Assembly: GCF_011762125.1 (NCBI RefSeq)
Contig: NZ_JAASQN010000010.1
Span: 1-64,000, forward strand
DNA: 64,000 nucleotides
Direction of reading: 5' to 3'
From: Sphingopyxis panaciterrae
GTDB lineage: Bacteria; Pseudomonadota; Alphaproteobacteria; Sphingomonadales; Sphingomonadaceae
A model generated the notes under the pieces. The model was not told the DNA's origin. It searched no databases and was given only the letters and a program-made list of their open reading frames with translations. Shown in pieces: positions 34,784 to 51,730 of this stretch. Position 1 is the stretch's first letter; the number at the start of each line of letters is the position of its first letter. A program made the position numbers and the translations under genes.

Positions 34784-36793
34784 ATGGCGCTTGACGCGCT
34801 CGACACCGGCTTTGCACTCCGCCTTGGCGGACAGGTGATCCTTTCGCATCGCGACGGCGCGCCCTGTTTCTTTGTCGGACGCGGCGAAGCGCATGTGCAT
34901 TCGAAGCTCGGGCATTTCGATGTTTCGCAGACGGTGATCGAGCGGATCGCGCTCGGGCATGTCGAGGCCGATGGTCCGGTCGTGCGTTTTGCCGAAGCCG
35001 CCGGTTCGCCCTGGCTGCTCGAAGCGCGCGTTTCGGGCGATGGGGACGACGCGACGATCGCGCTGACCGCGCTCGACCCGGCGCTCAACCGGTTGTGGCT
35101 GCGCGTGGCGGCCGAGGCCGGCGAGCATGTGTGGGGCGGCGGCGAGCAACTCTCCTATTTCGACTTGCGCGGTCGGTATTTCCCGCTGTGGTCGAGCGAA
35201 CCCGGCGTCGGCCGCGATCCCTCGTCGGAGCTGTTCCAGCAGGTCGAAGCGCACCGCAAGGGCGGCGGCGGCAGCTATGCCCACACCAATTATCCGCAGC
35301 CGACCTATGTGAGTTCGCGGCGCTATGCGTTGCACGTCGACAGCTTTGCCTATGCGGCGTTCGATTTTCGCGCCGAGGATTATCACGAGGTCGAGGTCTG
35401 GGAGATCCCGGCGAAGATCGACTTATGGGCGCGGCCGCGTTTCACCGATCTGGTGTCGGCATTGTCGGCGCGCTTCGGACGCCAGCCGCCGCTGCCCGAA
35501 TGGCTGCTGAAGGGCGCCGTCATCGGCCTGAAGGATGGCGACAACAGCTTTGCGCGCCTCAAGGCCTATGAGGACGCCGGGGTCGCGGTATCGGGGCTGT
35601 GGTGCGAGGATTGGGTCGGGCTGCGCATCACCAGCTTCGGCAACCGCCTGTTCTGGGACTGGCAATGGAATGCCGAACGTTACCCAAACCTGCCGGCGCG
35701 GATTGCCGAACTGCGCGAACGCGGTATTCGCTTCCTCGGCTATGTGAACCCCTATCTGGCGGTCGACGGCCCGCTTTATGCCGAAGCAGCGACAGAGGGC
35801 TATATGGTCATGCACCCCGAGCGCGACGAGCCTTATGTGATCGACTTCGGCGAGTTCGATTGCGGGCATGTCGATTTCACCAATCCGGCGGCGGCGGCGT
35901 GGTTCGCCGACACGATCATCGGCGAAAAGATGGTCGATTTCGGGCTGTCGGGCTGGATGGCTGACTTCGGCGAATATCTGCCCGTCGATGTGCGGCTGGC
36001 GAACGGCGAAAGCGGGATGACCGCGCATAATCGCTGGCCGGCGCTGTGGGGCGAAGTGAACGCCAGGGGTATCGCCGGGCGCGGCCAGACGGGCGAGATG
36101 ATGGTGTTCATGCGCTCGGGCGCCGCCGGCGTGCAGGGGCATTGCCCGATGCTTTGGGCGGGCGACCAGGCGGTCGATTTCAGCCGCCATGACGGGATCG
36201 GCACGGTGATCTGCGCCGCGCTGTCGGCGGGAATGCTCGGCAACGCGCATCATCATAGCGACTGCGGCGGTTATACCAGCCTGTTCGACACCACGCGCGA
36301 TGCCGAACTGGCGATGCGCTGGGCCGAGATGTCGGCGTTCACGTCGATGATGCGCACGCATGAGGGCAACCGGCCGCGGCAGAATGTGCAATATGACGAC
36401 GATCCCGAATTGCTCGCGCATTTTGCCAAGATGACGCGGATCTACGCGCATCTCGCGCCCTATCTGCGGCGCTTGTCGAAGGAGGCGTCGGAAACTGGCC
36501 TGCCGGTGCAGCGCCCGCTGTTCCTGCATTTCGAGGAGGATGCGGAGACCTATGCGATCCAGACCAGCTATCTGCTCGGCCCCGACCTGCTCGTCGCGCC
36601 GGTGATCGCGGCGGGGAAAAGCGAATGGACGACCTATCTGCCCGCGGGCGCCGAATGGGTGCATCTGTGGTCGAGCAAGAGCTACGCGGGCGGCAGCGAC
36701 GCGACCGTCGCGGCGCCGTTCGGAGAGCCGCCGGTCTTCTATCGCGCCGGGTCGGCGGATGCGGCGCTGTTCGACGGGATCGTTTCGGCCTGA
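34784..36793 (+). CDS. GH31 sulfoquinovosidase (KERWY type)
   Basis: Predicted to hydrolyse alpha-sulfoquinovosides such as sulfoquinovosyl glycerol. The 669-residue product follows E. coli YihQ along its length: nucleophile Asp394 in GWMADFGEYLP and acid/base Asp461 in WAGDQ. The sulfonate-recognition set is complete: Lys250 (GLKDG), Glu275 (WCEDW), Arg288 and Trp291 (NRLFW), Tyr497 (GGYTSL). In known enzymes this set is QQRWY (E. coli) or KERWY (Agrobacterium), and ordinary GH31 glucosidases lack it. No signal peptide, so it acts in the cytoplasm. Start 34784 has AAGGA 9 nt upstream; 34766 is possible. Its 3' end overlaps the convergent LysR gene by 55 nt. Confidence 0.9.
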   Translation: MALDALDTGFALRLGGQVILSHRDGAPCFFVGRGEAHVHSKLGHFDVSQTVIERIALGHVEADGPVVRFAEAAGSPWLLEARVSGDGDDATIALTALDPALNRLWLRVAAEAGEHVWGGGEQLSYFDLRGRYFPLWSSEPGVGRDPSSELFQQVEAHRKGGGGSYAHTNYPQPTYVSSRRYALHVDSFAYAAFDFRAEDYHEVEVWEIPAKIDLWARPRFTDLVSALSARFGRQPPLPEWLLKGAVIGLKDGDNSFARLKAYEDAGVAVSGLWCEDWVGLRITSFGNRLFWDWQWNAERYPNLPARIAELRERGIRFLGYVNPYLAVDGPLYAEAATEGYMVMHPERDEPYVIDFGEFDCGHVDFTNPAAAAWFADTIIGEKMVDFGLSGWMADFGEYLPVDVRLANGESGMTAHNRWPALWGEVNARGIAGRGQTGEMMVFMRSGAAGVQGHCPMLWAGDQAVDFSRHDGIGTVICAALSAGMLGNAHHHSDCGGYTSLFDTTRDAELAMRWAEMSAFTSMMRTHEGNRPRQNVQYDDDPELLAHFAKMTRIYAHLAPYLRRLSKEASETGLPVQRPLFLHFEEDAETYAIQTSYLLGPDLLVAPVIAAGKSEWTTYLPAGAEWVHLWSSKSYAGGSDATVAAPFGEPPVFYRAGSADAALFDGIVSA

Positions 36794-37668
36794 GCGACAT
36801 CCTTCAATATCCCGACGAAGGCGGCGACAAGCGCGCTGCGGCTGCGGTTGCGGAGGAGATGGATCGCGTCGCGAGTGACTTCGGATGGCGGGAGCGCAAT
36901 CATGTGCAGGCCCGAGCGGAGCGCGAGCGCGCGCGGAACGACGGTAATGGCGCGGCCGCTCCTCGCCATGTCGAGGCAGGCGGCGGTGGAGTCGAGTTCA
37001 TAGTCGGGAAATTGCCCGGCAGCGAAGCGGGCGCGGAGGGCGCGCGGCAGGTTGCTGCCCGGTGCGGGACGCGGCAGCGCCCAGGGAAAATCGGCGCTGT
37101 CGCCCTGCCCCTTCGCGAGCGGGTGACCGGAGGAGCAGACGAGCATCAAAGGTTCGGGCGGCAGCGGGATGCAAAGCACCTCGTCGGCGTGGGCGGACGT
37201 GGCGAACTTCGCGCGGTTGCACACGACGAGGTCGAGGCGGCGGTCGACAAGGGTTTCGAGGAGTTGCTGCGACGGTCCGCCAGTAACGGTGACGCGCACG
37301 CCCGGATGCGCCCCGGCGAAACGCGCGATCGCATCGGTGAGCAGGGGTTGCAGCGGATAGGGCCCGCTGCCGACCGCGACGGTGCCGCTGCTCGGCTGGC
37401 CGAGGCCGCGCGCTTCCTGTTCGAGGTTCGCCGAGGCGGCGATGACGTCGCGCGCCGAACGGATCAGGCGATCGGCGTCGCTCGTCGGGCGGACATAATG
37501 GGTGGTGCGGTCGAAGAGCGTGGCGCCGAGTTCCTCCTCGAGCTTCTGGATCGAGCGGGTGAGCGCCGATTGGGTGAGGCCGAGTTCGCCGGCGGCGCGC
37601 GCGTAGCTGCCGAGGCGATAGAGGGTGTCGAAATGGCGCAGGCGGCGGAGGTTCATGGCGCGCAGCAT
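36739..37668 (-). CDS. LysR-family regulator, divergent from glpD operon
   Basis: The 309-residue product has the LysR helix-turn-helix (RLRHFDTLYRLGSYARAAGE, LGLTQSALTRSIQKLEEELG) and effector domain. I chose ATG 37668, with AGGA just upstream; 37656 is also possible. The gene ends inside the 3' end of the GH31 gene. A TGCATT-ACC-AATGCA box lies between it and glpD, which points to control of the glpD operon. Confidence 0.85.
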   Translation of the reverse strand: MLRAMNLRRLRHFDTLYRLGSYARAAGELGLTQSALTRSIQKLEEELGATLFDRTTHYVRPTSDADRLIRSARDVIAASANLEQEARGLGQPSSGTVAVGSGPYPLQPLLTDAIARFAGAHPGVRVTVTGGPSQQLLETLVDRRLDLVVCNRAKFATSAHADEVLCIPLPPEPLMLVCSSGHPLAKGQGDSADFPWALPRPAPGSNLPRALRARFAAGQFPDYELDSTAACLDMARSGRAITVVPRALALRSGLHMIALPPSEVTRDAIHLLRNRSRSALVAAFVGILKDVAQAETIPSNSAASADPAR

Positions 37669-37681
37669 ATCATTCCTGTTT

Positions 37682-37696
37682 TGCATTACCAATGCA
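37682..37696. promoter_or_regulatory. LysR-type binding box between LysR gene and glpD
   Basis: TGCATTACCAATGCA has perfect 6-bp arms around ACC and contains T-N11-A spacing. It sits in the 53-nt divergent gap, 26 nt before glpD. Confidence 0.5.
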
Positions 37697-37721: not shown

Positions 37722-39275
37722 ATGAGCAGCACCTCTCTCGATGCGCGGCGGCGCGCGCAGGTCTTTGCCGAACTGGAATCGCGGACGTTCGACCTTGCGG
37801 TGATCGGCGGCGGGATCACCGGCGCGGGGATCGCGCGCGATGCGGCGATGCGCGGGCTGTCGGTTGCGCTGGTCGAGGCGCGCGACTATGCAAGCGGGAC
37901 GAGCAGCCGTTCGTCGAAGATGATCCACGGCGGGCTGCGCTATCTGGCGCAGGGTGATATTGCGCTGGTCAAGGAAGCGGCATCGGAGCGGCAGATCCTG
38001 CGACGGATCGCGCCGCACCTGACGCGGCTGTCGCCCTTTCTGATCCCGACGACGAACATGGCGATGACCGCGAAGCTGCGCACGGGGCTGTGGGCGTTCG
38101 AGAAACTCGGCGGAGTGCCCGAAGCAGAAAAGCACGAGGTGATCGGGCTGGGCGAGCTTCAACGGCGCGAGCCGCTGATGCGGACCGGCGGGCTGAACGG
38201 CGCGGTGCTCTATCCCGAGTTTCTGACCGACGATGCGCGGTTGGTACTCGCCAATGTGCGGAGCGCGCGGGGCGCGGGTGCGGTGGTGGTTAATCATGCG
38301 GCGGCGTCGGAACTGACGGGCGACGGGCTGGTCGCGACGTCAACGCTGGACGATGGCCGGGGGGCGCGGATCCGGGCGAAACTGGTGGTAAACGCCGCGG
38401 GCGCGTGGGTCGACAAGGTGCGCGGGCTGGAGGCGGGTGAAACCGACACGCGCATGTCGATGAGCCGCGGTATCCACCTTGTCCTGCCGCGCGCGCGGCT
38501 GCCGGTCAATTCGACGATCATCATTCGTGCCCCGGACAAGCGCAGCGTCTTCGCGGTCCCGCGCGGCGCCTTCACCTATATCGGCACGACCGATGTATTC
38601 CACGACGGCGCCGTCTACTGGCCCGCGCCGACGCGCGACGACATCGACTATCTGCTGCGCGCGGCCGAGGCGGCGCTGCGCGTCGACCCGATCAGGGACG
38701 GCGAGATCGTCTCGCTGTGGTCGGGGGTGCGGCCGCTGATCGCGCAGCCGGGGAAGAAGGCGAACGAAATATCGCGCAAGGACGAGATATGGACCTCGCC
38801 TAGCGGACTGGTGTCGATCGCAGGGGGCAAGCTCAGCGCCTATCGCGCGATGGCCGGGCGGGTGGTCGACCTGGTCCTCGAACGGCTGGGCAAGAGCGCC
38901 CCGCCCTGTTCGAGCGCTCACACGCCGCTGCCCGGCGGATCGCGCGAAGTGCGGCTCGCCGGGCTCGATCCGCTGGCGGCCGAACGGCTGGCAGGACTCT
39001 ATGGCGACGAGGCGAACGAGATCGTGATTGCAGGCGGCGATATCGCCGCCGAGGCGGCGCGCGCGGTGACGCACGAGGGTGCGTCGACGCTGGAGGATTA
39101 TTGGGTGCGGCGGAGTGCACGCGCGTGGTTCGACGAGGGCGCGGGCCTTGGTGCGCTCGCGCCAGCCGCCGAGGCGATGGGCGCGCTGCTCGGCTGGGAT
39201 GACGCGATGAAGGCGGCGCAAATCGCGCATTGCCGAGCGATCAACGATGAGAGCCGCAGGCTTTTGGGAGAATGA
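37722..39275 (+). CDS. glpD: Glycerol-3-phosphate dehydrogenase (FAD-dependent, GlpD family)
   Basis: Oxidises glycerol-3-phosphate to dihydroxyacetone phosphate and feeds electrons to quinone at the inner membrane. The 517-residue product has the FAD-binding motif LAVIGGGITGAGIARDAAMR, the GlpD signature SGTSSRSSKMIHGGLRYLAQ and a C-terminal domain (VTHEGASTLEDYWVRRSARA). It is the first gene of a three-gene operon with an AGPS-like flavoprotein (1-nt gap) and a glycerol-kinase-like protein. A second GlpD elsewhere in the genome is likely, so this one is probably pathway-specific. Confidence 0.9.
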   Translation: MSSTSLDARRRAQVFAELESRTFDLAVIGGGITGAGIARDAAMRGLSVALVEARDYASGTSSRSSKMIHGGLRYLAQGDIALVKEAASERQILRRIAPHLTRLSPFLIPTTNMAMTAKLRTGLWAFEKLGGVPEAEKHEVIGLGELQRREPLMRTGGLNGAVLYPEFLTDDARLVLANVRSARGAGAVVVNHAAASELTGDGLVATSTLDDGRGARIRAKLVVNAAGAWVDKVRGLEAGETDTRMSMSRGIHLVLPRARLPVNSTIIIRAPDKRSVFAVPRGAFTYIGTTDVFHDGAVYWPAPTRDDIDYLLRAAEAALRVDPIRDGEIVSLWSGVRPLIAQPGKKANEISRKDEIWTSPSGLVSIAGGKLSAYRAMAGRVVDLVLERLGKSAPPCSSAHTPLPGGSREVRLAGLDPLAAERLAGLYGDEANEIVIAGGDIAAEAARAVTHEGASTLEDYWVRRSARAWFDEGAGLGALAPAAEAMGALLGWDDAMKAAQIAHCRAINDESRRLLGE

Positions 39276-39276
39276 A

Positions 39277-40680
39277 ATGAGTTCGATTGCCGAAGCCCTT
39301 GCCAACGTCATCGGCGCCGACCGCGTCGCGAGCGATGCCGACGCGCGACAAGCGCGGCGCTATGACCAGTGGGCGGTCAAGCACTTGCGCGACTGGCGCG
39401 GCGAAACGGTGCCCGCACCGGGATGCGTCGTGCGGCCGCAGTCGGTCGAGGATGTGCAGAGGGTCGTGCGGCTGGCTGCGGAGAAGCGCGTGCCGCTGAT
39501 CCCCTATGGCCTTGGCAGCGGAGTGTGCGGCGGGATCGAGCCCACGCCCGATGCGATCCTGCTCGACATGAGCAGCATGAACCGCGTGCGCACCATCGAC
39601 GGCGACGATTTGCTCGCGAGCTTCGATGCCGGTTTGAACGGCATGGAAGCCGAGGAAGCGGTCGCGGCGCACGGGCTGACGATCGGTCACTGGCCGCAGT
39701 CGATCGCGATCAGCAGTGTCGGCGGCTGGGTCGCGACGCGCGCGTCGGGGCAGTTTTCGACCGCTTACGGCAATATCGAGGATATCATCCATTCGATCGA
39801 GGCGGTGCTGCCGAACGGCGAACTGGTAACGCTGGGCAAGGCGGTGCGCGCCGCCGCTGGGCCGGATTTGCGGCATCTGCTGATGGGCGCCGAAGGGACG
39901 ATGGGGGTAATCACCGGCGTGACCTTCTCGCTGCGCGCCAAGGCGCCGCACCGCGACTACAGCATCTTCTATGCGAACGATATGCGCGCCGGGTTCGAGG
40001 CGCAGCGGCAGATCGTGCGCGCCGATTGGCGCCCGCCGGTGATGCGCCAGTATGACGGGCGCGAGGTGCGGCGGCTGTTCCGCGACTATGAGCAGGGCGG
40101 CAAGGCGATGCTGCTGATGGTCCACGAGGGACCGAAAGCTCGAGTCGATGCCGAGCTGGCGGCGGTGCACGAAATCTGCGCGAGCGCGGGGCTCGAAGCG
40201 GGCGATCCGATGGCGGCGAAGCAGTGGATCGAAAAGCGCAATCATGTGCCGAGCTGGCGCGACATGTTCGAGCGCGGTTATGTCGCCGACACAGTCGAGA
40301 TTTCGGGGCGCTGGAGCGAGATCGGCGCGATCTATGACGCCAGCATCGCGGCGCTCAACGAAATTCCCGGCGTGATCAACGCGTCGGCGCACAGCAGCCA
40401 TGTCTATCGGTCGGGCATCAACCTCTATTTCAGCTTCGCGGCGACGTTCGAGGACAGCGCGAAGATGGAGCCCGCCTATTTCGCCGGCTGGCGCGCGATC
40501 ATGGAAGCGACCGCGAAGCATGGTGGCGGGGTCGCGCACCATCATGGCGCGGGGCGGCTGAGGAAGCCGTATCTGCACCATGATCTGGGCGAGAGCGGCG
40601 TTGCGTTGCTGCGGCGGGTGAAGGATTGCCTCGATCCGGAAGGGATCATGAACCCGGGCAATCTGATACCCGATGCCTGA
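39277..40680 (+). CDS. FAD-binding oxidase, alkylglycerone-phosphate synthase-like
   Basis: The 467-residue product has the FAD-binding-4 domain (VPLIPYGLGSGVCGG, SSVGGWVATRASGQFS, LLMGAEGTMGVITGVTF) and the C-terminal GVAHHHGAGRLRKPYL, which matches the His-rich active-site loop of alkyl-dihydroxyacetonephosphate synthase (AGPS) rather than of lactate or glycolate oxidases. ATG 39277 follows GGGAGAATGAA. Its place between GlpD and a glycerol kinase suggests chemistry on a glycerone-phosphate-like compound, for example opening or forming an ether at C1. The reaction is unknown. Confidence 0.8.
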   Translation: MSSIAEALANVIGADRVASDADARQARRYDQWAVKHLRDWRGETVPAPGCVVRPQSVEDVQRVVRLAAEKRVPLIPYGLGSGVCGGIEPTPDAILLDMSSMNRVRTIDGDDLLASFDAGLNGMEAEEAVAAHGLTIGHWPQSIAISSVGGWVATRASGQFSTAYGNIEDIIHSIEAVLPNGELVTLGKAVRAAAGPDLRHLLMGAEGTMGVITGVTFSLRAKAPHRDYSIFYANDMRAGFEAQRQIVRADWRPPVMRQYDGREVRRLFRDYEQGGKAMLLMVHEGPKARVDAELAAVHEICASAGLEAGDPMAAKQWIEKRNHVPSWRDMFERGYVADTVEISGRWSEIGAIYDASIAALNEIPGVINASAHSSHVYRSGINLYFSFAATFEDSAKMEPAYFAGWRAIMEATAKHGGGVAHHHGAGRLRKPYLHHDLGESGVALLRRVKDCLDPEGIMNPGNLIPDA

Positions 40681-42091
40681 GTTGTTGCTCGCGCTCGACG
40701 CGGGCACGACGGGCGCCCGCGCCATGCTGGTCGACCCGGCGGGCGCGGTGCTGGGCGTCGATAAATGGCCGATCGCGAGCCATTTCCCTGCCCCCGGGCT
40801 GGTCGAGCAGGACGCGGCCGGGGTCTGGACTATCTGCCGGGCGGTGATCGACGGCGCGCTGGCGGCGGCGGGACGCAGCATCGCCGATGTTGCCGCGATC
40901 GGCGTGACGACACAGCGCGCAAGCATCGTGCTGTGGGATCGCGCCACCGGCGAGCCGGTCGCACCGATGCTCGTGTGGAGCGACCTGCGCGGAATGGACG
41001 AATATAAGCGTCTTCGCGCGGCGGGCTTCGCTGGATGGCCGCAGGTGCCTTCGGCAAAGTTGCCCGCAGCGATTGCGCTGTCGGGGTGCGATCCCGGCGG
41101 GCTGCAATGGGGAACGCTCGATAGCTGGCTGACTTACAAGCTTAGCGGCGCGCATGTCACCGATGCCTCGGCGGCCTGGCTGACGGGCTATTATGATTAT
41201 GCGAATGGCGCCGGATGGGATGCTGCCTTGGTCGCCCACCAGAAGCTGCCTGCAGCCATGTTCCCGGCGCAGGTCGAAAGCTGGGGCGCGATTGCGACAA
41301 GCGATCCGGCGGTACTCGGCGCGCGGGTGCCGATCACCGCGCTGATCGCCGACCAGGAGGCCGCGATGGTCGCGCATGGCGCGCTGGAGCGCGGCGACTG
41401 GAAGGCGACCTATGGCACGTCGGGGGTGCTGATGGCGGGGACGGGCGCGGTGCCCGAGACGATCCACAGCAGCATGCCCGCCGAGGCGCTGGCCTTTGCG
41501 GGCGGGAAGCCGCGGTTTTGCGTTGAGGGGATGGTGATCACCACCGGATCGATGATCGAGTGGCTGTGCGGCGGGCTGGGGCTGTTTGCATCGCCCGCTG
41601 CGATGGAAGCGGCGGCAGCTTCGGTGAGCGATGCGGGAAAAGTCGTGGTGCGACCGTCGCTTGCGGGGATGGGCGCGCCGCATGGCAAGTTCGAGGCGCG
41701 CGGGTTGATCGCCGGGCTGAGCTTTGCCGACGGACCGGGGCAGGTCGCGCGCGCGGCGTTGCAAGGGATCGCGTTCCGCTTTCGCGAGATTGCGGACGTG
41801 ATTGCGACGGCGCTGCCGGTGCCCGAGGCGCTGCCCGTCGCGGGCGGGCTGTCGGCGAGCGAGACGCTGATGCAGTTGCAGGCCGACGCCTTGCAGCGGC
41901 CGGTGCGGCGCCATGCGGTACGCGAGGCGAGCGCCTATGGCGCCGCACTCGCGGCGGGGATGGGTGCGGGCCTGTTCGGGACAGGCGATCTGAAGCGGCT
42001 GGCGCAATACGATGCCGAGTTTTTGCCGAAGGTCGGTCGCGATGAGGCCGATACTGCGTTTGCGCGCTGGCGGGATGCGGTGGCGGTGTGA
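40673..42091 (+). CDS. FGGY-family carbohydrate kinase, glycerol-kinase-like
   Basis: Likely phosphorylates glycerol or a close polyol. The 472-residue product has the actin-like ATPase pattern: LLALDAGTTGARAMLVDPAG, IGVTTQRASIVLWDRATG, LIADQEAAMVAHGALERGDW and a C-terminal ALPVAGGLSASETLMQLQAD. It overlaps the AGPS-like gene by 8 nt. Sequence features resemble GlpK more than xylulokinase, but several glycerol-contact residues differ from E. coli GlpK as far as I can judge, so other triols or tetritols are possible. Confidence 0.82.
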   Translation: MPELLLALDAGTTGARAMLVDPAGAVLGVDKWPIASHFPAPGLVEQDAAGVWTICRAVIDGALAAAGRSIADVAAIGVTTQRASIVLWDRATGEPVAPMLVWSDLRGMDEYKRLRAAGFAGWPQVPSAKLPAAIALSGCDPGGLQWGTLDSWLTYKLSGAHVTDASAAWLTGYYDYANGAGWDAALVAHQKLPAAMFPAQVESWGAIATSDPAVLGARVPITALIADQEAAMVAHGALERGDWKATYGTSGVLMAGTGAVPETIHSSMPAEALAFAGGKPRFCVEGMVITTGSMIEWLCGGLGLFASPAAMEAAAASVSDAGKVVVRPSLAGMGAPHGKFEARGLIAGLSFADGPGQVARAALQGIAFRFREIADVIATALPVPEALPVAGGLSASETLMQLQADALQRPVRRHAVREASAYGAALAAGMGAGLFGTGDLKRLAQYDAEFLPKVGRDEADTAFARWRDAVAV

Positions 42092-42216: not shown

Positions 42217-43053
42217 TTATATCCCCCCCACCTCGCGCCACAGCCCCCGCACGATGTCGCGCATACGCTGTGCTTCGTCCCAGCGGTTCGTCAGTTCGCT
42301 GCCGTCGGGCGCAGTGATCGCGTAAGGGGGAGGCCCGAGTTCGCACATGAAGGTCAGCGCATCATCTGCGCGCGCCTGCTCGAGCCAGAGTTCGAGACCG
42401 CGGCGCCACCAAGCGATATGCTGGTCGAGCCAGCCCCGATGTTGCGGCGCATCGAGAGCGACCTGCACCTGATGCGTCGTAGACACGCGGCCATGGAAAT
42501 TATGGCTCCCCTGCAGGATCGTCTCGATCGCGGCGAGCTGGTCGTCGCGGAGCGGCAGTTCCATCTCGCCCGCGACCGGATAGTGCGACAGGTCGGCGGT
42601 GAGCGGAAATCCGGGGCGTTCCTCGAGCAGTTCCAGCGTGAAGAGCAGATCGTTGGTGAGGCGGCCGCGGTGGGTTTCGAACCAGACGGGGAGCGGCGCG
42701 TCCTTCGCCGCGGCGACGAGACTGTCGATCAGGCGCAGCGCGGCGCGGAAATCGGCGGTCGGGCCGGCGATCTGGACGTTGAGATGATGCGCGCCGAGCC
42801 GCTGCGCCTCGCCGATCCAGTGGGTGAGCTGGTCCGCGTCGTGGACGAGCACCTGCCCTTCCCATGCAAGGCCGAGCGGGTTCATCACGCGCGCGACCCC
42901 ATCGGTGCGCGCGGTGCGTGCGAGGTTGACGCCGACGCCGTCGAAGCCCGCGGCGACGACCTGGCCGAGCGCTTCGTCGAGGCGGTTTTCGATGTCGAAA
43001 CCGGGGCATTTGTCGAGGCCCCAGACCGATTGAAGAACGAGCAATTCGGGCAT
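42217..43053 (-). CDS. Sugar phosphate isomerase/epimerase-like TIM-barrel protein
   Basis: The 278-residue product has the AP-endonuclease-2-like barrel pattern: GLDKCPGFDIENRLDEALGQ, HHLNVQIAGPTADF, PVWFETHRGRLTND (candidate metal-binding Glu and His), FPLTADLSHYPVAGE (Asp, His) and FMCELGPPPYAI (Glu). This fits xylose-isomerase-like enzymes acting on free sugars or keto-sugars. I chose ATG 43053, with GGGAAG upstream; the frame is open to 43197 across an operator and a repeat. An operator-like palindrome lies 13 nt upstream, so it likely belongs to the LacI regulon. The substrate is unknown. Confidence 0.75.
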   Translation of the reverse strand: MPELLVLQSVWGLDKCPGFDIENRLDEALGQVVAAGFDGVGVNLARTARTDGVARVMNPLGLAWEGQVLVHDADQLTHWIGEAQRLGAHHLNVQIAGPTADFRAALRLIDSLVAAAKDAPLPVWFETHRGRLTNDLLFTLELLEERPGFPLTADLSHYPVAGEMELPLRDDQLAAIETILQGSHNFHGRVSTTHQVQVALDAPQHRGWLDQHIAWWRRGLELWLEQARADDALTFMCELGPPPYAITAPDGSELTNRWDEAQRMRDIVRGLWREVGGI

Positions 43054-44562: not shown

Positions 44563-45725
44563 GTATCGCGAGTATCGCCCTGCCCCGCATCCTGCGCATC
44601 GGCGGCGGCGCGTCGAAGCAATTGGCCGAGGTGCTTGGCGCGCTGGGTCTGGCGCGGCCGTTGATCGTGACCGATAGCTGGCTGGTGAGCAGCGGGCGCG
44701 TGGCCGAGCTGGTCGATGGGCTGACGGCGGCGGGCATCGCTTCGCGCGTGTTTGCCGAAACGGTGCCCGACCCCACGGTGGCGTCGATCGACGCGGGGGT
44801 GGCGTATCGGCTGGAGGGCGACCACGACTGCGTCGTCGGATTTGGCGGCGGCAGCCCGCTCGACAGCGCGAAGGCGATTGCGGTGCTCGGCGAGTTCGGC
44901 GGCGCGATGGCCGATTACAAGGCACCGCATGTTCAGGACGCGCCGGGGCTGCCGGTGATCGCGATCCCGACCACCGCCGGCACGGGGTCGGAGGCGACGC
45001 GTTTCACGATCATCACCGACGAGACGACCGACGAGAAGATGCTGTGCCCGGGGCTCGCCTATCTGCCCGTCGCGGCGCTGGTCGATTATGCGCTGACCTT
45101 TACCAAGCCGGTGCGGCTGACCGCCGATACGGGGATCGATTCGCTGACGCACGCGATCGAGGCTTATGTGTCGAAGCGCGCGAACCCGTTCAGCGACGGC
45201 ATGGCCTTGCTCGCGATGCGGGCGATTGCGCCGAATTTGCGCCGCGTGTGCAGCGACCCGATGGACGCCGCGGCGCGCGAGGCAATGATGCTGGGCGCGA
45301 CACAGGCGGGGATCGCTTTTTCGAACAGTTCGGTCGCGCTGGTGCACGGGATGAGCCGGCCGATCGGCGCGCATTTCCATGTGCCGCACGGGCTGTCGAA
45401 CGCGATGCTGCTGCCCGCGGTCACCGCTTGGTCGGCGCCCGCGGCGCTGCATCGCTATGCCGATTGCGCGCGGGCGATGGGGGTGGCCGACGAAGCCGAG
45501 GGCGACCAGTCGGCGGTGGCGCGGTTGCTCGATGAGCTGGCGGCATTGAACCGCGAACTCGCGGTGCCGGGCCCCGCGGCATGGGGCATCGACGCGGCGC
45601 GCTGGGACGCGCTGGTCCCGACGATGTGTGCGCAGGCGGCGGCGTCGGGCTCACCGGCGAACAATCCGCGGGTGCCCGATGCGGAGGAGATGGCGATGCT
45701 CTATGCGCAGGTGTGGGCTGGATAA
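44559..45725 (+). CDS. Iron-containing alcohol dehydrogenase
   Basis: The 388-residue product has the group III ADH pattern: NAD-binding GFGGGSPLDSAKAI, IPTTAGTGSEATRFTI and metal ligands in DSLTHAIEAY and VHGMSRPIGAHFHVPHG. I chose TTG 44559: it overlaps the MFS stop, has GAGGAG upstream, and gives the usual family length; no ATG fits. Coupling to the MFS gene and an operator upstream place it in the LacI regulon. It may reduce an aldehyde of the sulfosugar route or oxidise a polyol; sequence does not decide. Confidence 0.82.
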   Translation: MSIASIALPRILRIGGGASKQLAEVLGALGLARPLIVTDSWLVSSGRVAELVDGLTAAGIASRVFAETVPDPTVASIDAGVAYRLEGDHDCVVGFGGGSPLDSAKAIAVLGEFGGAMADYKAPHVQDAPGLPVIAIPTTAGTGSEATRFTIITDETTDEKMLCPGLAYLPVAALVDYALTFTKPVRLTADTGIDSLTHAIEAYVSKRANPFSDGMALLAMRAIAPNLRRVCSDPMDAAAREAMMLGATQAGIAFSNSSVALVHGMSRPIGAHFHVPHGLSNAMLLPAVTAWSAPAALHRYADCARAMGVADEAEGDQSAVARLLDELAALNRELAVPGPAAWGIDAARWDALVPTMCAQAAASGSPANNPRVPDAEEMAMLYAQVWAG

Positions 45726-45864: not shown

Positions 45865-45872
45865 GAAGAGGG

Positions 45873-46940
45873 TCAGAGTATCAACGGCCCGTGCTTCATC
45901 TTCGGCAGCACATGGCGCGCGAAGAGGTCGGCTTCGGCCGCGTGCGGGTAGCCCGAGAGGATGAAGGCTTCGATGCCCAGGTCCTGATAGCGGTTCAGCT
46001 TCGCGAGCACCTGATCGGGATCGCCGACGATCGCGGCGCCGCAGCCCGAGCGGGCGCGGCCGACGCCGGTCCAGAGATTATCCTCGACATAGCCGTCGTC
46101 GGAGGCGGCTTCGCGCAAGGCGACCTGCGCGTTGACCCCGAACGACTGCGAGTCGAGCGACTTGGCCTTGATCTCGGCACCTTTCGCGGCGTCGAGTTTC
46201 GAGAGCAGGCGGTCGGCGGCGGTGCGCGCTTCGCTTTCGGTGTCGCGGACGATCATATGCGCGCGATAGCCGAATTTGAGCGTGCGGCCGTAGGCGGCGG
46301 CCCGCTTGGTCATATCCGCGATGATCTCCTTCACCACCTCTTCGCGGTCGGGCCACATCAGGAAGACGTCGCAGCCCTTTGCGGCGGCGTCGCGCGCGGC
46401 GGGCGAGAGGCCGCCGAAATAGAGCGGCGGCGCCTTGCCCGACACCATGCCGACGCGCGGCGGTTCGAGCTTCAGCTGCCAGAACTCGCCGTCATGGTCG
46501 AGCGCCTCGCCATTGAGCAAAGTCTTCAGGATATGCATCGCCTCGACCGTGCGGCGATAGCGCGGTTCGGAGTCCATCGTCTCGCCCGGCATGTCGGAGG
46601 AGATGATGTTGACCGTCAGCCGGCCGCCGAGGATCTGGTCGATCGTCGCGATCTGGCGCGCGAGCTGCGGCGGCCAGCTTTCGCCGATGCGCACCGCCAT
46701 CAGCAAGCGGATGTTCTTGACCATCGTCGCGATCGCCGCGGCGAAGGCGGTGGTGTCGATGCCGAGCACATAGCCCGACGGCAGCAGGATATTGTCGAAC
46801 CCCAAGGTATCGGCCTGCACCACGATGTCGCGGCAATGTTCCCAGCTCGACTTGAGCATCGGGTCGGGAACCCCCAGAAATTCATAGTCGTCGTCGCAGA
46901 GCGCCGAAAACCAGCTGACTTCGCACGAGCGGTCGGTCAT
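45873..46940 (-). CDS. SsuD/SmoC-like FMNH2-dependent sulfonate monooxygenase
   Basis: Predicted to split the C-S bond of a sulfonate, releasing sulfite and an aldehyde. The 355-residue luciferase-like product follows SsuD closely: MAVRIGESWPPQLARQIATI, NIISSDMPGE, PPLYFGGLSPAARDAAAKGC, LKFGYRAHMIVRDTESEA and NLWTGVGRARSGCGAAIVGD, then LGIEAFILSGYPH. Sulfoquinovose monooxygenase SmoC belongs to this group. I chose ATG 46940, which overlaps the aldo/keto reductase stop (ATGA) and has GGGGGAG upstream. The coupled reductase, repressor site and exporter favour a sulfo-sugar over simple alkanesulfonates. It needs a flavin reductase, absent from this operon. Confidence 0.85.
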   Translation of the reverse strand: MTDRSCEVSWFSALCDDDYEFLGVPDPMLKSSWEHCRDIVVQADTLGFDNILLPSGYVLGIDTTAFAAAIATMVKNIRLLMAVRIGESWPPQLARQIATIDQILGGRLTVNIISSDMPGETMDSEPRYRRTVEAMHILKTLLNGEALDHDGEFWQLKLEPPRVGMVSGKAPPLYFGGLSPAARDAAAKGCDVFLMWPDREEVVKEIIADMTKRAAAYGRTLKFGYRAHMIVRDTESEARTAADRLLSKLDAAKGAEIKAKSLDSQSFGVNAQVALREAASDDGYVEDNLWTGVGRARSGCGAAIVGDPDQVLAKLNRYQDLGIEAFILSGYPHAAEADLFARHVLPKMKHGPLIL

Positions 46941-47848
46941 GGCAGATTCTCCCCCATCGATACCTGCAGCACCGCATACCATTCGGCGCGCGTCCAGCGC
47001 GGCGCCAAGGCCTGCGGAATTTCACGGATACGTTCGACATTCTGTGTGCCGACGATCGGGATCGGGCGCGCGGGATGCGCCATCACCCAGCTGTAGGTCG
47101 CGGCGGCGCGCGAGACGCCATATTCGGCGGCTTTCGCGTCGAGCAGTCCGGCGACTGCGCGCGTGCGCTCGTCGGCCGGATCGCCAAGCCGGCCGCCGCC
47201 GAGCGGCGACCAGGCGAGGAAACGCATCCCCTCCGCCATCGACTGGTCGAAGATGCCGTCGAACAGCGGGGCGAGGTGAAGCGGCGAAAATTCGCTCTGA
47301 TGGCTGACCACCGGAACGGGCAGGAATTTGGCGAGCGCCGCGGTTTGTGCGGGCGTGAAGTTAGAGACGCCGATCGCGCCGATCTTGCCCGCCCGGTGGG
47401 CATCCTCGAGCGTCCGCGCGCTTTCCTGCGGGTGGGTGAGCAGGTCGGGACGGTGGATCTGCCACAGCTCGACATGGTCGGTGCGCAGGCGCCGGAGCGA
47501 GATGTCGATCGCCGAGGTCAGGTAGGCTGCGCTGCTGTCATAAGGTACGCCGAGGATGATCCCGCCCTTGGTCGCGAGGACCATCTTGTCACGCAGGCCG
47601 GGCGCCTCGGCGAAGACGTCGCCGAGCAGCGCCTCGGCCGAGCCGAAGCCGCCGGGGGTGTCGCAGCCATAGATGTCGGCGGTGTCGAACAGCGCGACGC
47701 CCGCCTCGAACGCCGCGTCTATCCGGGCGCGTGCCATGGCGACGTCGATGCCGGCGAAGCGCCACATGCCCCAGGCGATGGGCAAAACCTCATGACCGGC
47801 GAGGGTCATATGGGCGGGAGCGGGTAGAAAATCTGACATCGCTGTCAT
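46937..47848 (-). CDS. Aldo/keto reductase, SmoB-like candidate
   Basis: Candidate for reducing 6-oxo-glucose to glucose after desulfonation. The roughly 303-residue product shows the AKR tetrad: Asp and Tyr in LFDTADIYG, Lys in LATKGG, His in LWQIHRPD, plus a C-terminal NAD(P) site (PIPIVGTQNVERI). In the known Agrobacterium pathway the SmoB reductase has this role. The start is uncertain: ATG 47848 or 47839, and the operator O2 overlaps both, so the repressor would block initiation directly. It is translationally coupled to the monooxygenase. Confidence 0.82.
   Translation of the reverse strand: MTAMSDFLPAPAHMTLAGHEVLPIAWGMWRFAGIDVAMARARIDAAFEAGVALFDTADIYGCDTPGGFGSAEALLGDVFAEAPGLRDKMVLATKGGIILGVPYDSSAAYLTSAIDISLRRLRTDHVELWQIHRPDLLTHPQESARTLEDAHRAGKIGAIGVSNFTPAQTAALAKFLPVPVVSHQSEFSPLHLAPLFDGIFDQSMAEGMRFLAWSPLGGGRLGDPADERTRAVAGLLDAKAAEYGVSRAAATYSWVMAHPARPIPIVGTQNVERIREIPQALAPRWTRAEWYAVLQVSMGENLP
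47834..47847. promoter_or_regulatory. LacI operator O2
   Basis: TGACATCGCTGTCA is a palindrome with 5-bp arms TGACA / TGTCA and is followed by TATAC. It covers the start region of the aldo/keto reductase gene. Confidence 0.7.
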
Positions 47849-47929
47849 ATACTCCAATTGTTGGCTGAATGGAAGCGAGTTTGTTCCGGTTGTGCAAAGT
47901 TTAGGATGCCTGGAGGGCTATTATTTCGT

Positions 47930-48054: not shown

Positions 48055-49305
48055 TCAATGCGCCAGCACCTGCACGTCGCCATCCTCCCCCTCATCGACC
48101 GCGACGATGCGCGGCAGGATGAGGTGGATCGCGGCGAGCGCGACGAGATAGGTGACGGCGCAGACGAGGAACATCGGCAGATATCCCCGGCCCGTATCGA
48201 GCGACCAGCCCGCGAACTCGATCATCGCCATGCCCGACAGATTGCCGGCGAAGGCGCCGATGCCGATCGCCGAACCGACGATGCGCGCGGGGAAGACGTC
48301 GGTGGTGAGGCCGAAGAGATTGGTCGAAAAGCCCTGATGCGCGAACAGCGCAAGGCCGAGGATCATCGCGGCGGTCCAGGCGCTGTCGACGCCGACGAGC
48401 AGGGGCACGGGCAGGATGAGCAGCGCGTAGATCAGCATCGTCGTCTTGCGCGCGGCGTTCACGCTCCAGCCGCGGCGGCCCATCAGATAGGACGGCAGAT
48501 AACCACCGGTGATGCCGCCCAATGCCGCCATGAAATAGACGAAGGCGACGGGCAAGCCCAGCGTGCCCTGCGTCAGCCCGAAGACGCGGTGGAACAGATC
48601 GGGCATGAAGAAGAGCAGGAACCACCACACCTGATCGGTGAGCGCCTTGCCGAGGATCACCGCCCATTGGCGGCGGTCGCGGAGCAGGCTGCTCCACGCG
48701 ATCTTCGGCGCGGCGGCATCGCGCGCGGCGTTGGGCTGTTCGGGAATGCGGACCGCGAGCCAGACGACCACCCAGACGAGCCCGAGGCCGCCGGCGATCA
48801 GGAAGGTCGCCTGCCAGCCCCACATCAGCGCCATCAAGGGGATGAGCAAGGGCGTCAGGATCGCGCCGACGTTCGGCGCGATGCCGCCGAGGCCGAGGAC
48901 GAAGCTGCGTTCCTTGGCGTTGAAATAGGTCGCGGCGGTCTTCACCGCGGCCGGGGTACCAATCGATTCGGCGGCACCGAGGACCGCCCGCGAGGTGACG
49001 AAGCCGGCGACGGTCGAGGCGAAGGCATGCGCCATGCCCGCGAGGCTCCACACGCCAACGCCGATCGCAAAGCCCCAGCGCAGCCCGACCTTGTCGATGA
49101 ACCAGCCGGTGCCGAGGAACGCCAGCGCGGCGGCAAACTGGAAAGCCGAGGCCATATGGCTGTAATCGCGATCGGTCCAGTCGAACTCGGCCTGCAGGGT
49201 CGGCTTCAGCAGCGCGAGAATCTGGCGGTCGACATAGTTGAGGACGATCGCGATGAAGACGAGCCCCACCAAAAGCCAGCGGCGTCTGTCGGCGATTTGC
49301 GCCAA
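48055..49305 (-). CDS. MFS transporter of the anion:cation symporter type (ExuT-like)
   Basis: The 416-residue product has 12 predicted membrane helices, starting IAIVLNYVDRQILALLKPTL, the pattern of hexuronate and other acid-sugar symporters, with SRAVLGAAESIGTPAAVKTA in helix 4-5. An anionic substrate such as sulfoquinovose or a uronate fits. Operator O3 lies 37-50 nt upstream, so it is probably controlled by the adjacent LacI protein. A family B repeat separates it from lacI. Confidence 0.85.
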   Translation of the reverse strand: MAQIADRRRWLLVGLVFIAIVLNYVDRQILALLKPTLQAEFDWTDRDYSHMASAFQFAAALAFLGTGWFIDKVGLRWGFAIGVGVWSLAGMAHAFASTVAGFVTSRAVLGAAESIGTPAAVKTAATYFNAKERSFVLGLGGIAPNVGAILTPLLIPLMALMWGWQATFLIAGGLGLVWVVVWLAVRIPEQPNAARDAAAPKIAWSSLLRDRRQWAVILGKALTDQVWWFLLFFMPDLFHRVFGLTQGTLGLPVAFVYFMAALGGITGGYLPSYLMGRRGWSVNAARKTTMLIYALLILPVPLLVGVDSAWTAAMILGLALFAHQGFSTNLFGLTTDVFPARIVGSAIGIGAFAGNLSGMAMIEFAGWSLDTGRGYLPMFLVCAVTYLVALAAIHLILPRIVAVDEGEDGDVQVLAH

Positions 49306-49341: not shown

Positions 49342-49355
49342 AGATAACGTTGTCA
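49342..49355. promoter_or_regulatory. LacI operator O3
   Basis: AGATAACGTTGTCA matches O1 at 11 of 14 positions and is followed by TATCG exactly as in O1. It lies upstream of the ExuT-like gene. Confidence 0.65.
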
Positions 49356-49379
49356 TATCGGAATGGACAGCGAAATCTT

Positions 49380-49469: not shown

Positions 49470-49470
49470 A

Positions 49471-50475
49471 CTATGCGCGCGGCCCCGCCGTCGACCCCCG
49501 TACGATCAGTTCATGCGGAAGCTGCCGCCGCTCGATCGTCTCGCCGAATTCGAGCAACAGGTCGGCGGCAGCATAGCCGAGGTCGCGGATCGGCTGGCGG
49601 ATCGTCGTCAGCGACGGCCAGACGACCTGCGCCAGATCGGTGTCGTCGAAACCCGCGACCGAAAGCTGGCCCGGCACCGATATGCCCTTGCGGTGCGCCG
49701 CGGCCAGCACCCCCGCAGCCATTTCGTCACTGCTCGCGAAGATTGCGGTCGGCGGTTCGGGCAGCGCGAGCAGCGCCTCGGCGGCGGCAGTGCCCGACTG
49801 GAAATCGAACTGGCCGGGGTGAACGAGCGCCGCGTCAAAGCCGATGCCCGCGCGCTGGAGCGCTTGCCGGTAACCGGTCAGGCGCTGGCCGCTGGCGAAA
49901 TAATTGGCGTGGCCGGTGACCAGCCCGATCCGGCGATGGCCGAGCGAGATGAGGTAGGCCGTCATGTCGTCGGCGGCCTGGACATTGTCGATGTAAACCG
50001 CCGAGGTTGCGGTGAGATCGGTGCCCGGCTGGACACGCACGACGGGAATCTTGCGGCGGAACAGCTCGGCAAGCGCGGTGCCGACGTCGGTGACCGGGGG
50101 GGTCATGATGATCCCGTCGAGCTGCGCCTGATCGATCAGCGCCCCGATGTCATCGACGAGGCCGGGCGAGTTGATGTCGCACGGCTGGACGATCATGCGA
50201 AAGTCCGCCTCGCGGCAGCGCTGCCCGACGCCGGCCTGCATGTTGAAGATGTAATAGGGGCTGGGATTGTCGTGGATCAGCCCGATCTGGAACGACCGCC
50301 GCCCGGCGAGCGTGCGCGCGGCGAGGCTCGGGTGATAGTTGAGGCGCGCGACCGCTTCCTCGACCTTTTGCCGCATGTCGTCACTGACATAACGTTCCTT
50401 GTTGAGCACGCGCGACACGGTCTTGATCGACACGCCGGCGACGCGCGAGACATCCTTGATCGTCGCCCGGGTCAT
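49471..50475 (-). CDS. LacI-family repressor of the sulfosugar cluster
   Basis: The 334-residue product has the LacI helix-turn-helix (ATIKDVSRVAGVSIKTVSRV, LNKERYVSDDMRQKVEEAVA) with the hinge helix SLAARTLAGRR, and a sugar-binding core (IGLIHDNPSPYYIFNMQAGV; ASSDEMAAGVLAAAHRKGIS). ATG 50475 follows GGAG. Four similar palindromes in this window, near the isomerase/MFS, reductase, second MFS and exporter genes, have the central CG and half-site size expected for LacI proteins. Inducer is unknown; the sulfosugar or its product is the obvious candidate. Confidence 0.85.
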   Translation of the reverse strand: MTRATIKDVSRVAGVSIKTVSRVLNKERYVSDDMRQKVEEAVARLNYHPSLAARTLAGRRSFQIGLIHDNPSPYYIFNMQAGVGQRCREADFRMIVQPCDINSPGLVDDIGALIDQAQLDGIIMTPPVTDVGTALAELFRRKIPVVRVQPGTDLTATSAVYIDNVQAADDMTAYLISLGHRRIGLVTGHANYFASGQRLTGYRQALQRAGIGFDAALVHPGQFDFQSGTAAAEALLALPEPPTAIFASSDEMAAGVLAAAHRKGISVPGQLSVAGFDDTDLAQVVWPSLTTIRQPIRDLGYAAADLLLEFGETIERRQLPHELIVRGSTAGPRA

Positions 50476-50647: not shown

Positions 50648-50665
50648 AGAAATGACGGGACCTCG

Positions 50666-51730
50666 ATGCGCCACGCGCATTGGAACAATCTGCCGAGCGG
50701 CGGTGATCTGTTCGGCGAACTGCATCTGGCCCGGACGGCGGCGGGGACGGCGCCGAAAGGCAGCTTGTTTCCCGGGCTTGCCGCCTGCGCCGCGGGATCG
50801 GCGGCGGCGGCGTGGCTGTCCGACCATTATGGCGTGCCGATCATCCTGCTCGGCCTGCTCGTCGGGCTGGCGCTCAATTTCATCTCGGCCGACGAACGTA
50901 CGCACCGGGGCCTCGACTTCGCATCGCGCAGCTTCCTGCGGACCGGCATCGTCGTGCTCGGGCTGCAGGTGACCTTCGCGCAGATCGTCGTGCTCGGCCC
51001 GGTGCCTTTTGCCTGCCTGCTTGTCGTGATGGCGGTGACGATGGCGGCGGGGCTGGCGGGGGCGCGTGTCGCCGGACAGTCGCCCTATGCCGGATTGCTC
51101 GCGGGCGGCGCGACGGCAATCTGCGGCGCGAGCGCGGCGCTGGCGCTTTATGGCGTGATCGGGCGGCAGCGGCTGCCGCAGGCGCAGTTCGCGCTGACCC
51201 TCGTCGGCATTTCTCTCGCCAGCGCGCTCGCGATGACGATCTATCCGATGCTCGCCGTCCATTTCGGGCTCAGCGACGCGCAGGCGGGGTTCCTGATCGG
51301 CGCGTCGATCCATGACGTGGCGCAGGCGATCGGCGGCGGCTATGCCTTTTCGGACGCGGCGGGCGCGGGCGCGACGATCGTCAAGCTGGCGCGCGTCGCG
51401 CTGCTCGCCCCCGTCGTCGCGCTGGTGAGCCTGCTGCTGAAGCCCGAGGGTGGCGACGCCCGGATCTGGCGCCGCCTCGCGCTGCCCTGGTTCATCCTCG
51501 CCTTCCTGGCGATGGTCACGCTGAACAGCGTCGTCGCGATGCCGGCGGTCGTGCAGGGCTGGGCCCTGACGGCGTCGAAGGCGCTGCTGCTGCTCGCGGT
51601 CACCGCAACCGCGATGCGCACCAACCTTGGCCTGCTGATCGGCATGGGCTGGCGCGCCGGGGTTCCTGTCGTCGTCGCGACGCTCGCCAGCTTCGCCGCG
51701 TCGCTGCTCTTCGCGCTGCTGGTCGTCTAG
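50666..51730 (+). CDS. YeiH-family putative sulfate/sulfite exporter
   Basis: The 354-residue product has about ten membrane helices and the YeiH/UPF0324 signatures GGATAICGASAALALYGVIG and IGASIHDVAQAIGGGYAFSD. The family is annotated as putative sulfate exporters; the substrate is not firmly proven. Beside a C-S-cleaving monooxygenase, export of toxic sulfite or its oxidation product is a natural role. I chose ATG 50666, giving the usual family length; the frame is open to 50399 across the lacI promoter. O4 lies just upstream. Confidence 0.82.
   Translation: MRHAHWNNLPSGGDLFGELHLARTAAGTAPKGSLFPGLAACAAGSAAAAWLSDHYGVPIILLGLLVGLALNFISADERTHRGLDFASRSFLRTGIVVLGLQVTFAQIVVLGPVPFACLLVVMAVTMAAGLAGARVAGQSPYAGLLAGGATAICGASAALALYGVIGRQRLPQAQFALTLVGISLASALAMTIYPMLAVHFGLSDAQAGFLIGASIHDVAQAIGGGYAFSDAAGAGATIVKLARVALLAPVVALVSLLLKPEGGDARIWRRLALPWFILAFLAMVTLNSVVAMPAVVQGWALTASKALLLLAVTATAMRTNLGLLIGMGWRAGVPVVVATLASFAASLLFALLVV

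Follow-up and report, generated by a model that had tools for sequence, protein, structure and literature searches.

Degradation of sulfoquinovose (SQ) through a monooxygenase pathway, termed sulfo-ASMO, has been characterised in Agrobacterium and in Novosphingobium aromaticivorans (the latter by Liu et al. 2021), according to the available portions of two reviews (PMC9594981, PMC12890257). The same portions attribute the formation of glucose and sulfite to SquD plus SquF, and state that clusters without SsuE, e.g., that of N. aromaticivorans, may rely on other flavin reductases. In the available text of a further paper, 13C-SQ was assimilated by Novosphingobium and sulfo-SMO clusters were predicted in many taxa (PMC13372026). 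No paper on sulfoquinovose in Sphingopyxis was found in the open literature, which is weak evidence of absence. The Agrobacterium sulfo-SMO cluster, with SmoI, SmoC, SmoB and SmoA, was reportedly described by Sharma et al. in 2022.

Here, we analysed positions 1 to 64,000 of contig NZ_JAASQN010000010.1 of Sphingopyxis panaciterrae (contig C10 of a 4.84 Mb assembly; hereafter the window), for which an initial annotation had proposed a sulfoquinovose-monooxygenase cluster in a sphingomonad. This proposal was well supported by gene content, individual residues and a conserved neighbourhood. We consider it about 85% probable, from the sequence evidence below, that the core encodes a sulfo-SMO (sulfo-ASMO) pathway leading from SQ-glycerol via SQ to 6-dehydroglucose plus sulfite and on to glucose. 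The core would be known biology in a genus that is probably new for it. What is new here is the composite architecture, in which an apparently co-regulated module, built around a flavoenzyme resembling alkyl-dihydroxyacetone phosphate synthase (AGPS), is inserted into the SQ cluster. The logic of monooxygenase, aldo/keto reductase (AKR) and sulfoquinovosidase is that of the sulfo-ASMO pathway of N. aromaticivorans DSM 12444, a member of the same bacterial order; the inserted module and a pair of PhyH and FMN reductase genes are features of the window relative to that strain, as far as the reviews describe it.

Occurrence was surveyed at three levels. Gene neighbourhoods were compared in the best 80 of at least 577 SquD loci (hereafter the named loci), a selection biased to near relatives in which both flanks were complete for 52; a gene was counted if a homologue lay within 9 kb of SquD. 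In addition, 296 Sphingomonadales genomes were searched, with a cut-off of E <= 1e-60 for the presence of SquD and of the AGPS-like protein, as were 398 genomes from across the phylum. A SquD homologue occurred in 56/296 Sphingomonadales genomes. Among the matches listed, the closest named relatives of the window's SquD were mostly from Sphingopyxis (94-97%).

Core enzymes of the sulfoquinovose cluster

The glycoside hydrolase family 31 (GH31) protein scored 873 bits against the NCBIfam equivalog PRK10426 (cut-off 553), which we take to be YihQ, and its best match among solved structures was 5ohy/5ohs (935 bits), presumably the Agrobacterium sulfoquinovosidase. The alignment with 5ohy showed identity at K245, E270, R283 and W286, at the tyrosine within GGYTSLF and at the aspartate within GDQ. 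We assume that the first five, the KERWY set, bind the sulfonate and that the Asp acts as acid/base, so the reading of this gene as a KERWY-type GH31 was borne out in both its binding and its catalytic residues.

The luciferase-like monooxygenase was closest to 7olf/7oh2 (389 and 385 bits), and the AKR to 7bbz/7bby (158 bits); the structure database gives these entries generic names and we take them to be of SmoC and SmoB type, respectively. The end of the AKR gene and the probable start of SquD share four bases, and the two genes were found together in 77/80 named loci, adjacent every time, so that the pairing is not due to chance. An SsuD/SmoC-like monooxygenase coupled to an AKR, as first annotated, is therefore what the matches and the overlapping genes describe. 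The enzyme might instead serve to scavenge sulfur as a monooxygenase of alkanesulfonates in general (SsuD/MsuD), given that it belongs to the same superfamily and reaches 260 bits against the SsuD equivalog TIGR03565. This score is, however, half the cut-off of 518, the SmoC-type chains were much closer than 7jv3 (226 bits) or SsuD itself (1nqk/1m41, 201 bits), and the gene is linked to a sulfoquinovosidase and a reductase, which makes a scavenging enzyme very improbable.

Some observations weigh against the sulfo-SMO assignment or parts of it. GH31 was near SquD in only 18/80 named loci (15/52 of those with full flanks), and SquD-AKR is therefore not always accompanied by this sulfoquinovosidase. 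Two plasmid clusters had a Gfo/Idh/MocA gene in place of GH31, adjoining the AKR in Sphingobium yanoikuyae and LacI in Sphingomonas paeninsulae; these genes possibly encode a sulfoquinovosidase of the GH188 kind. The FMN reductase described below was only distantly SsuE-like (22 bits), and two proteins of the Oxidored_molyb type encoded in the genome are possible sulfite oxidisers in place of the YeiH exporter.

Probable uptake, flavin supply and sulfite disposal

The Agrobacterium cluster shares with the window a GH31 with KERWY and the SmoC-like and SmoB-like enzymes. Import there is by an ABC transporter and the flavin reductase is SmoA, whereas the window has a TonB-dependent receptor, major facilitator superfamily (MFS) transporters and a PF03358 reductase. 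No ABC transporter or SmoA of the Agrobacterium-type operon was present in the cluster. The initial annotation had described this as a rearranged pathway; the replacement of ABC import by MFS and TonB proteins stands, its novelty does not. Among the 80 named loci, 62 had a homologue of MFS transporter 2 (MFS2) in the vicinity of SquD and 51 one of the TonB-dependent receptor, while LacI was there in 55 and YeiH in 41; MFS2 homologues were counted from 39% identity upwards and the receptors were mostly at 40-49%, and not all need be orthologues. The sulfo-ASMO pathway had also already been shown in N. aromaticivorans, in the available text of the reviews (PMC9594981, PMC12890257).

The flavin reductase was reported as missing from the core, but an FMN_red gene lies about 4.6 kb beyond the left edge of the interval then covered. 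Homologues of this gene were near SquD in 17/80 named loci, adjoining it (within 300 bp) in 16. The host genome has in total ten PF03358 and four PF01613 matches, and FMNH2 for SquD may come from this candidate partner or from another cellular reductase. Per the review text available, SsuE is absent from the N. aromaticivorans cluster too.

The FMN reductase gene is paired with a gene of the PhyH family, and by its conservation the pair is, judged from sequence, part of the SQ cluster. PhyH was near SquD in 9/80 named loci; it lies close to AKR-SquD on a plasmid of Novosphingobium sp. EMRT-2 and in S. yanoikuyae, behind SquD in the latter. At phylum level it was matched in 3/398 genomes, one being the window's own and the other two belonging to the same class. 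A second C-S cleaving oxygenase and a lipid step are candidate roles. PhyH also turned up repeatedly in SQ clusters of sphingomonads, whether or not GH31 was there (loci L033, L053, L054, L058, L071, L081, L094, L099, L104, L142 and L144). Disposal of sulfite is the probable function of YeiH, from its family and position.

Related clusters differ in what surrounds the core. Plasmid pLA3 of Novosphingobium pentaromativorans US6-1 carries TonB receptor, GH31, LacI, AKR, SquD, GlpD and GlpK genes in one row, as does genome G186 in the same order; the first five are common to US6-1 and the window, and GlpD/GlpK take the place of the AGPS module. The EMRT-2 plasmid has GH31, an acyl-CoA ligase, TonB receptor, LysR, PhyH, AKR and SquD. 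The ligase, a long-chain fatty acid-CoA ligase (L142:7830-9473), sits between GH31 and the TonB receptor and suggests use of the whole sulfolipid. A locus of the same genus as the window, L183 (G291:C1:400000-419999), retains the cluster's LacI, AKR and iron-containing alcohol dehydrogenase, with SquD, MFS1, MFS2, GH31, YeiH and FMN reductase reduced to short partial matches, an apparent decay of the pathway.

A separable module with an AGPS-like flavoenzyme

Within the cluster lies a module of the composition LysR2-GlpD-AGPS-FGGY-isomerase-MFS1, in which the reading frames of the GlpD-like, AGPS-like and FGGY kinase genes overlap end to end. This module was variable among SQ clusters. The AGPS-like gene was near SquD in 9/80 named loci, and clusters L033 and L036, which are close relatives and match in other respects, do not have the module. 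Sphingopyxis sp. Root154 is without it at this locus. The AGPS-like gene occurred in 3/296 Sphingomonadales and 6/398 phylum genomes (the window's own counted in both), and all three of the former were SquD-positive. In genome G179 and on the EMRT-2 plasmid the module was free-standing, accompanied by MFS2 and LacI (79-81% to those of the window) and separated from SquD by ~261 kb and ~185 kb, respectively, on the same contig or plasmid. The cluster in the window thus combines two separate units. The additional GlpD-like, AGPS-like, kinase and isomerase genes first listed are thus indeed present; rather than loose accessories they are a separable module with its own distribution and a palindrome shared with the SQ genes.

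The three overlapping genes encode proteins that depart from their best-known relatives. The GlpD-like protein keeps the SGVRPL and GGK motifs and scored 285 bits, below the GlpD equivalog cut-off of 360, and the FGGY kinase scored 321 bits against a GlpK cut-off of 590. AGPS is the eukaryotic ether-lipid synthase. The AGPS-like protein scored 198 bits to alkyl-dihydroxyacetone phosphate (alkyl-DHAP) synthase 2uuu, its best match among solved structures, versus 110 bits to D-lactate dehydrogenase. It resembles AGPS (2uuu, 4bby) in sequence overall, including its Tyr and HHH motifs, and HxSHxYxxG plus HHHG were present in 16/16 aligned AGPS-like proteins, the window's included; E. coli GlcD had neither. 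Neither acyl-DHAP genes nor fatty-alcohol genes were recognised in the window cluster, a difference from an AGPS setting.

In the alignment with GlpK, the kinase has Ala for Glu84, Gln in the Tyr135 column and a changed Phe270 position; Glu84 and Tyr135 are glycerol-site residues of GlpK. Glu84 was lacking in 13/13 aligned AGPS-linked kinases and kept in the three comparison GlpKs, from E. coli, the window genome and US6-1, while Asp245 was kept in all 16. The Burkholderia and Cupriavidus AGPS-linked kinases retain Tyr135 and Phe270, and that of Microbacterium retains Phe270. The GlpK of the window genome is encoded on contig C4 and has the NQRET and DPYFSGTK motifs.

This association of genes extends well beyond the sphingomonads. 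Fifteen AGPS-like loci were picked by hand, 14 from 82 plasmid records, spread over taxa, plus E. coli K-12. An FGGY kinase was in the cluster in 14/15, usually with a GlpD, short-chain dehydrogenase/reductase (SDR) or GldA-type dehydrogenase; in the exception, Methylobacterium, a four-carbon acid kinase and PdxA stand in for FGGY. The dehydrogenase was GlpD-like in Novosphingobium, Microbacterium, Burkholderia and Cupriavidus, and of SDR or GldA type in most others. Among five more AGPS-like loci from the phylum search, with flanks of ~1.5 kb or less, one had both FGGY and GlpD, two GlpD only and two neither. Genes for glycerol 3-phosphate-responsive antiterminators adjoin the AGPS-like gene sets in Enterococcus and Streptomyces.

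Two such sets occur in well-studied bacteria. In E. coli ygcU-ygcW-yqcE-ygcE (L134:12965-18375), an AGPS-like flavoenzyme, a dehydrogenase, an MFS transporter and an FGGY kinase stand together, as in the window, but the dehydrogenase is an SDR rather than GlpD, the kinase is distant (21% identity) and there are no SQ genes in the stretch shown. No function for this set was found in a single search of the open literature, where the papers appear to concern promoters and regulation. Pseudomonas aeruginosa PA3026-PA3024 combines an AGPS-like FAD oxidoreductase, a GlpD homologue and an FGGY kinase in one operon, a likeness by description only; the available text of the paper gives an AraC regulator (GliR/PA3027) and a link to lipid genes, and mentions no SQ genes (PMC8151288).

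A palindrome common to SQ genes and module

Comparison of promoters within the window yielded the palindrome TGACAnCGnTGTCA, present with no mismatch at the AKR start, one at the isomerase/MFS1 promoter and two before MFS2. Because the pattern came from the window itself, the ten closest loci (L032-L041) were set aside and the test was run on 70 others (L042-L111). In these, 92 sites had no more than one mismatch, and 73 of them fell in 180-bp intervals at the starts of cluster genes; 59 permuted palindromes averaged 0.17, with a maximum of 3. By gene, sites were found at AKR (46/65), MFS2 (15/50), YeiH (11/33) and the TonB receptor (8/50), where intervals can overlap. AKR sites lie in DNA that mostly overlaps the start codon; without them, 26 sites in 19/70 loci remained (controls: mean 0.10, maximum 3).

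The palindrome also accompanied the module, lying 18-20 bp from the isomerase start in 9/9 named module loci (eight with one mismatch, L044 with two). The isomerase promoter of genome G268 (L119) has it too, as does the corresponding promoter in the free-standing modules (L117 and L127). A homologue of the window's LacI (at least 349 bits) occurred in 53/296 genomes, of which 46 had SquD, and ten SquD genomes lacked it, counts uncorrected for kinship. In the host genome the pattern matched at 13 places with no more than one mismatch, perfectly only at 47834, and the reversed pattern nowhere; ten of the 13 lie outside contig C10 and may be sites of other LacI regulators. LacI presumably binds the palindrome, and the module appears, from these promoter sites, to be under the same LacI control as the SQ genes.

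Other observations count against this regulatory picture. At the TonB receptor and GH31 genes of the window, no site was found within two mismatches. In EMRT-2 and G179, the palindrome and LacI accompany the module and not SquD. Operators of the LacI family are also alike: the LacI-like palindrome TGACACCGGTATCA precedes a receptor gene at 23343, which belongs to another locus. 

Possible roles of the module

We see an even chance that the module handles, in some way, the glyceryl moiety of SQ-glycerol or similar glyceryl compounds. One version, which we rate as rather less likely than not, is plain salvage of the glycerol released from SQ-glycerol, with a divergent glycerol kinase, a GlpD-like enzyme forming dihydroxyacetone phosphate (DHAP) and the AGPS-like protein as a side oxidase. 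GlpK and GlpD genes follow AKR-SquD in US6-1, whose kinase keeps Glu84, and, by homology, in G186; GlpK- or GlpD-like homologues (32-37% identity) are near SquD in L066, L072, L074, L075, L079 and L093, and the Pseudomonas kinase is assigned to glycerol, by prediction, in the available text of PMC8151288. The window kinase has, however, lost Glu84 and is changed at the Tyr135 and Phe270 positions, both it and the GlpD-like protein fall below their equivalog cut-offs, the genome already has a GlpK on C4 and the AGPS-like protein is left unexplained. A three-step, non-hydrolytic cleavage of 1-O-substituted glycerols (SQ-glycerol, other glycosylglycerols, glyceryl ethers) would give it a part. 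The FGGY kinase would phosphorylate the free glyceryl hydroxyl, the GlpD-like enzyme would then oxidise C2, and the AGPS-like flavoenzyme would free DHAP and the sugar or alcohol via an FAD adduct, in reversal of AGPS chemistry. Consistent with this are the AGPS match and its motifs in all aligned proteins, the consistent loss of Glu84 beside a conserved Asp245, the recurrent FGGY kinase, the antiterminator genes and the palindrome common to module and SQ genes; the genes for uptake and regulation that surround the module in the window suggest breakdown more than synthesis. Deletion of PA3026-PA3024 left growth on glycerol unchanged, which is compatible with a substrate other than glycerol and also with simple redundancy; the same deletion had no phenotype on the BIOLOG plates used, which speaks against it, as far as the available text of that study goes (PMC8151288). 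Cleavage is further weakened by several points: the AGPS-like enzyme could be an ordinary oxidase, its structure model is poor (pLDDT 49), SQ-glycerol is already split by the GH31 of the same cluster, Methylobacterium has another kinase and PdxA, only one of the five short-flank loci shows both FGGY and GlpD, and the Burkholderia and Cupriavidus kinases keep two glycerol-site positions. We regard the cleavage route as doubtful, and salvage as slightly more likely.

The module could also be a pathway for some polyol or sugar that has nothing to do with SQ and came to lie in this cluster, its position and palindrome shared by accident. It stands alone in EMRT-2 and G179 and is missing from the closely related L033 and L036; yet the kind of LacI and the palindrome are those of SQ clusters, both replicons or contigs with a free-standing module carry SquD and so does every AGPS-like-positive genome of the 296, and we think an accidental association unlikely. 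Least probable by some way is synthesis of alkyl-DHAP (ether lipid) from glycerol, which the available text of PMC8151288 predicts for PA3026-PA3024 as part of glycerolipid synthesis. The three gene kinds are the same and the AGPS motifs are present, but neither the window cluster nor the surroundings of the free-standing EMRT-2 module showed acyl-DHAP or fatty-alcohol genes, the glycerol site of the kinase is altered, and the transporters, LacI and LysR regulators and isomerase indicate uptake and breakdown. No relevant paper on catabolism by a bacterial AGPS and glycerol kinase, or on glyceryl ethers, was found in the open literature, which is weak evidence.

Organisation of the locus and proposed pathway

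All genes of the initial parts list (GH31, monooxygenase, AKR, MFS, LacI and YeiH) are present near the positions first given, as is the iron-containing alcohol dehydrogenase gene. Two LysR genes and the PhyH-FMN reductase pair (29564-31032) come in addition (Table 1). From left to right, the order is FMN reductase, PhyH, LysR, TonB receptor, GH31, LysR, GlpD-like, AGPS-like, FGGY kinase, isomerase-like, MFS1, iron-containing alcohol dehydrogenase, SquD, AKR, MFS2, LacI and YeiH.

Table 1. Genes and operator-like sites of the SQ cluster, in window coordinates
Feature	Coordinates	Strand	Evidence or remark
NAD(P)H-dependent FMN reductase, candidate SquD partner	29564..30190	-	PF03358, 83 bits
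PhyH family, probable Fe/2-oxoglutarate dioxygenase	30190..31032	-	PF05721, 81 bits
LysR regulator, divergent from PhyH	30968..31975	+	PF00126/PF03466; 83% homologue adjoins PhyH in EMRT-2
TonB-dependent receptor, probable outer-membrane SQ-glycerol uptake	32319..34649	+	PF00593/PF07715
GH31 sulfoquinovosidase, SmoI/YihQ type, KERWY	34766..36793	+	Equivalog score, 5ohy alignment
LysR (LysR2), head of the module	36739..37692	-	Heads the module in EMRT-2 and G179 too
GlpD-like FAD dehydrogenase, module	37722..39275	+	PF01266/PF16901
AGPS-like FAD enzyme, module	39247..40680	+	Similarity to 2uuu; motifs
FGGY kinase, GlpK-like without glycerol-site Glu84, module	40673..42091	+	Alignment
Xylose-isomerase-like TIM-barrel protein (isomerase, epimerase or lyase)	42217..43053	-	
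LacI-type operator-like site, isomerase/MFS1 promoter	43066..43079	+	1 mismatch
MFS transporter 1, module	43228..44562	+	PF07690
Iron-containing alcohol dehydrogenase, TTG start	44559..45725	+	PF00465/PF25137; near SquD in 11/80 named loci
Sulfoquinovose monooxygenase, SquD/SmoC type	45873..46982, start probably 46940	-	
6-dehydroglucose reductase, SquF/SmoB-type AKR	46937..47857, start probably 47848 or 47839	-	
LacI-type operator-like site TGACATCGCTGTCA, over AKR-SquD start	47834..47847		Perfect
MFS transporter 2, probable SQ/SQ-glycerol uptake	48055..49305	-	PF07690
Operator-like site before MFS2	49342..49355		2 mismatches
LacI repressor	49471..50475	-	PF00356/PF13377
YeiH-family exporter, probable sulfite/sulfate disposal	50633 or 50666..51730	+	PF03601

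We infer every reaction and transport step of the pathway as follows. SQ-glycerol would enter through the TonB receptor and an MFS carrier, and the GH31 sulfoquinovosidase would release SQ and glycerol. SquD would then cleave the C-S bond with O2 and FMNH2, giving sulfite and 6-dehydroglucose. The FMN reductase at 29.6 kb, or a different reductase of the cell, would supply the FMNH2. Glucose would be made by the AKR, and sulfite handled by YeiH or a sulfite oxidase. Cluster genes would be controlled by LacI via the predicted operators, and the second module (LysR, GlpD-like, AGPS-like, FGGY, isomerase, MFS) would most likely serve the glyceryl half.

Three neighbouring loci were also apparent. 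At 23284-28632, three consecutive genes, for a TonB receptor and two proteins of the alginate-lyase family, form a separate polysaccharide locus. Beside the cluster, a repetitive protein of 1814 residues (51825-57269, minus strand) has a C-terminal end that looked autotransporter-like by eye, and at 57464-60376 a protein resembling a membrane sensor kinase and, convergent to it, a response regulator of the NarL type were recognised, again by eye.

Implications

Phosphorylation of a substituted glycerol, oxidation at C2 and splitting to DHAP and a free sugar would be a catabolic strategy not yet described as such, though we rate its existence as unlikely on present evidence. If true, a sphingomonad SQ cluster would have two parallel openings of SQ-glycerol, or of a related thylakoid-lipid head group, under one LacI. 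With similarly low confidence, the same cleavage logic would extend to E. coli ygcU/ygcE and to operons in Actinomycetota, Bacillota and Fusobacteriota. The Pseudomonas PA3026-PA3024 set is already in print, read in the opposite, synthetic direction in the available text (PMC8151288).

The core of the window cluster extends a known pathway of the sulfur cycle to Sphingopyxis, and the SquD survey shows how frequent it is among Sphingomonadales. Through the palindrome, the SQ regulon becomes directly and cheaply accessible in sphingomonads and in neighbouring bacteria. Finally, the set of kinase, dehydrogenase and AGPS-like enzyme ties E. coli ygcU/ygcE and Pseudomonas PA3026-PA3024 to testable substrates, namely the substituted glycerols of plant membrane lipids.

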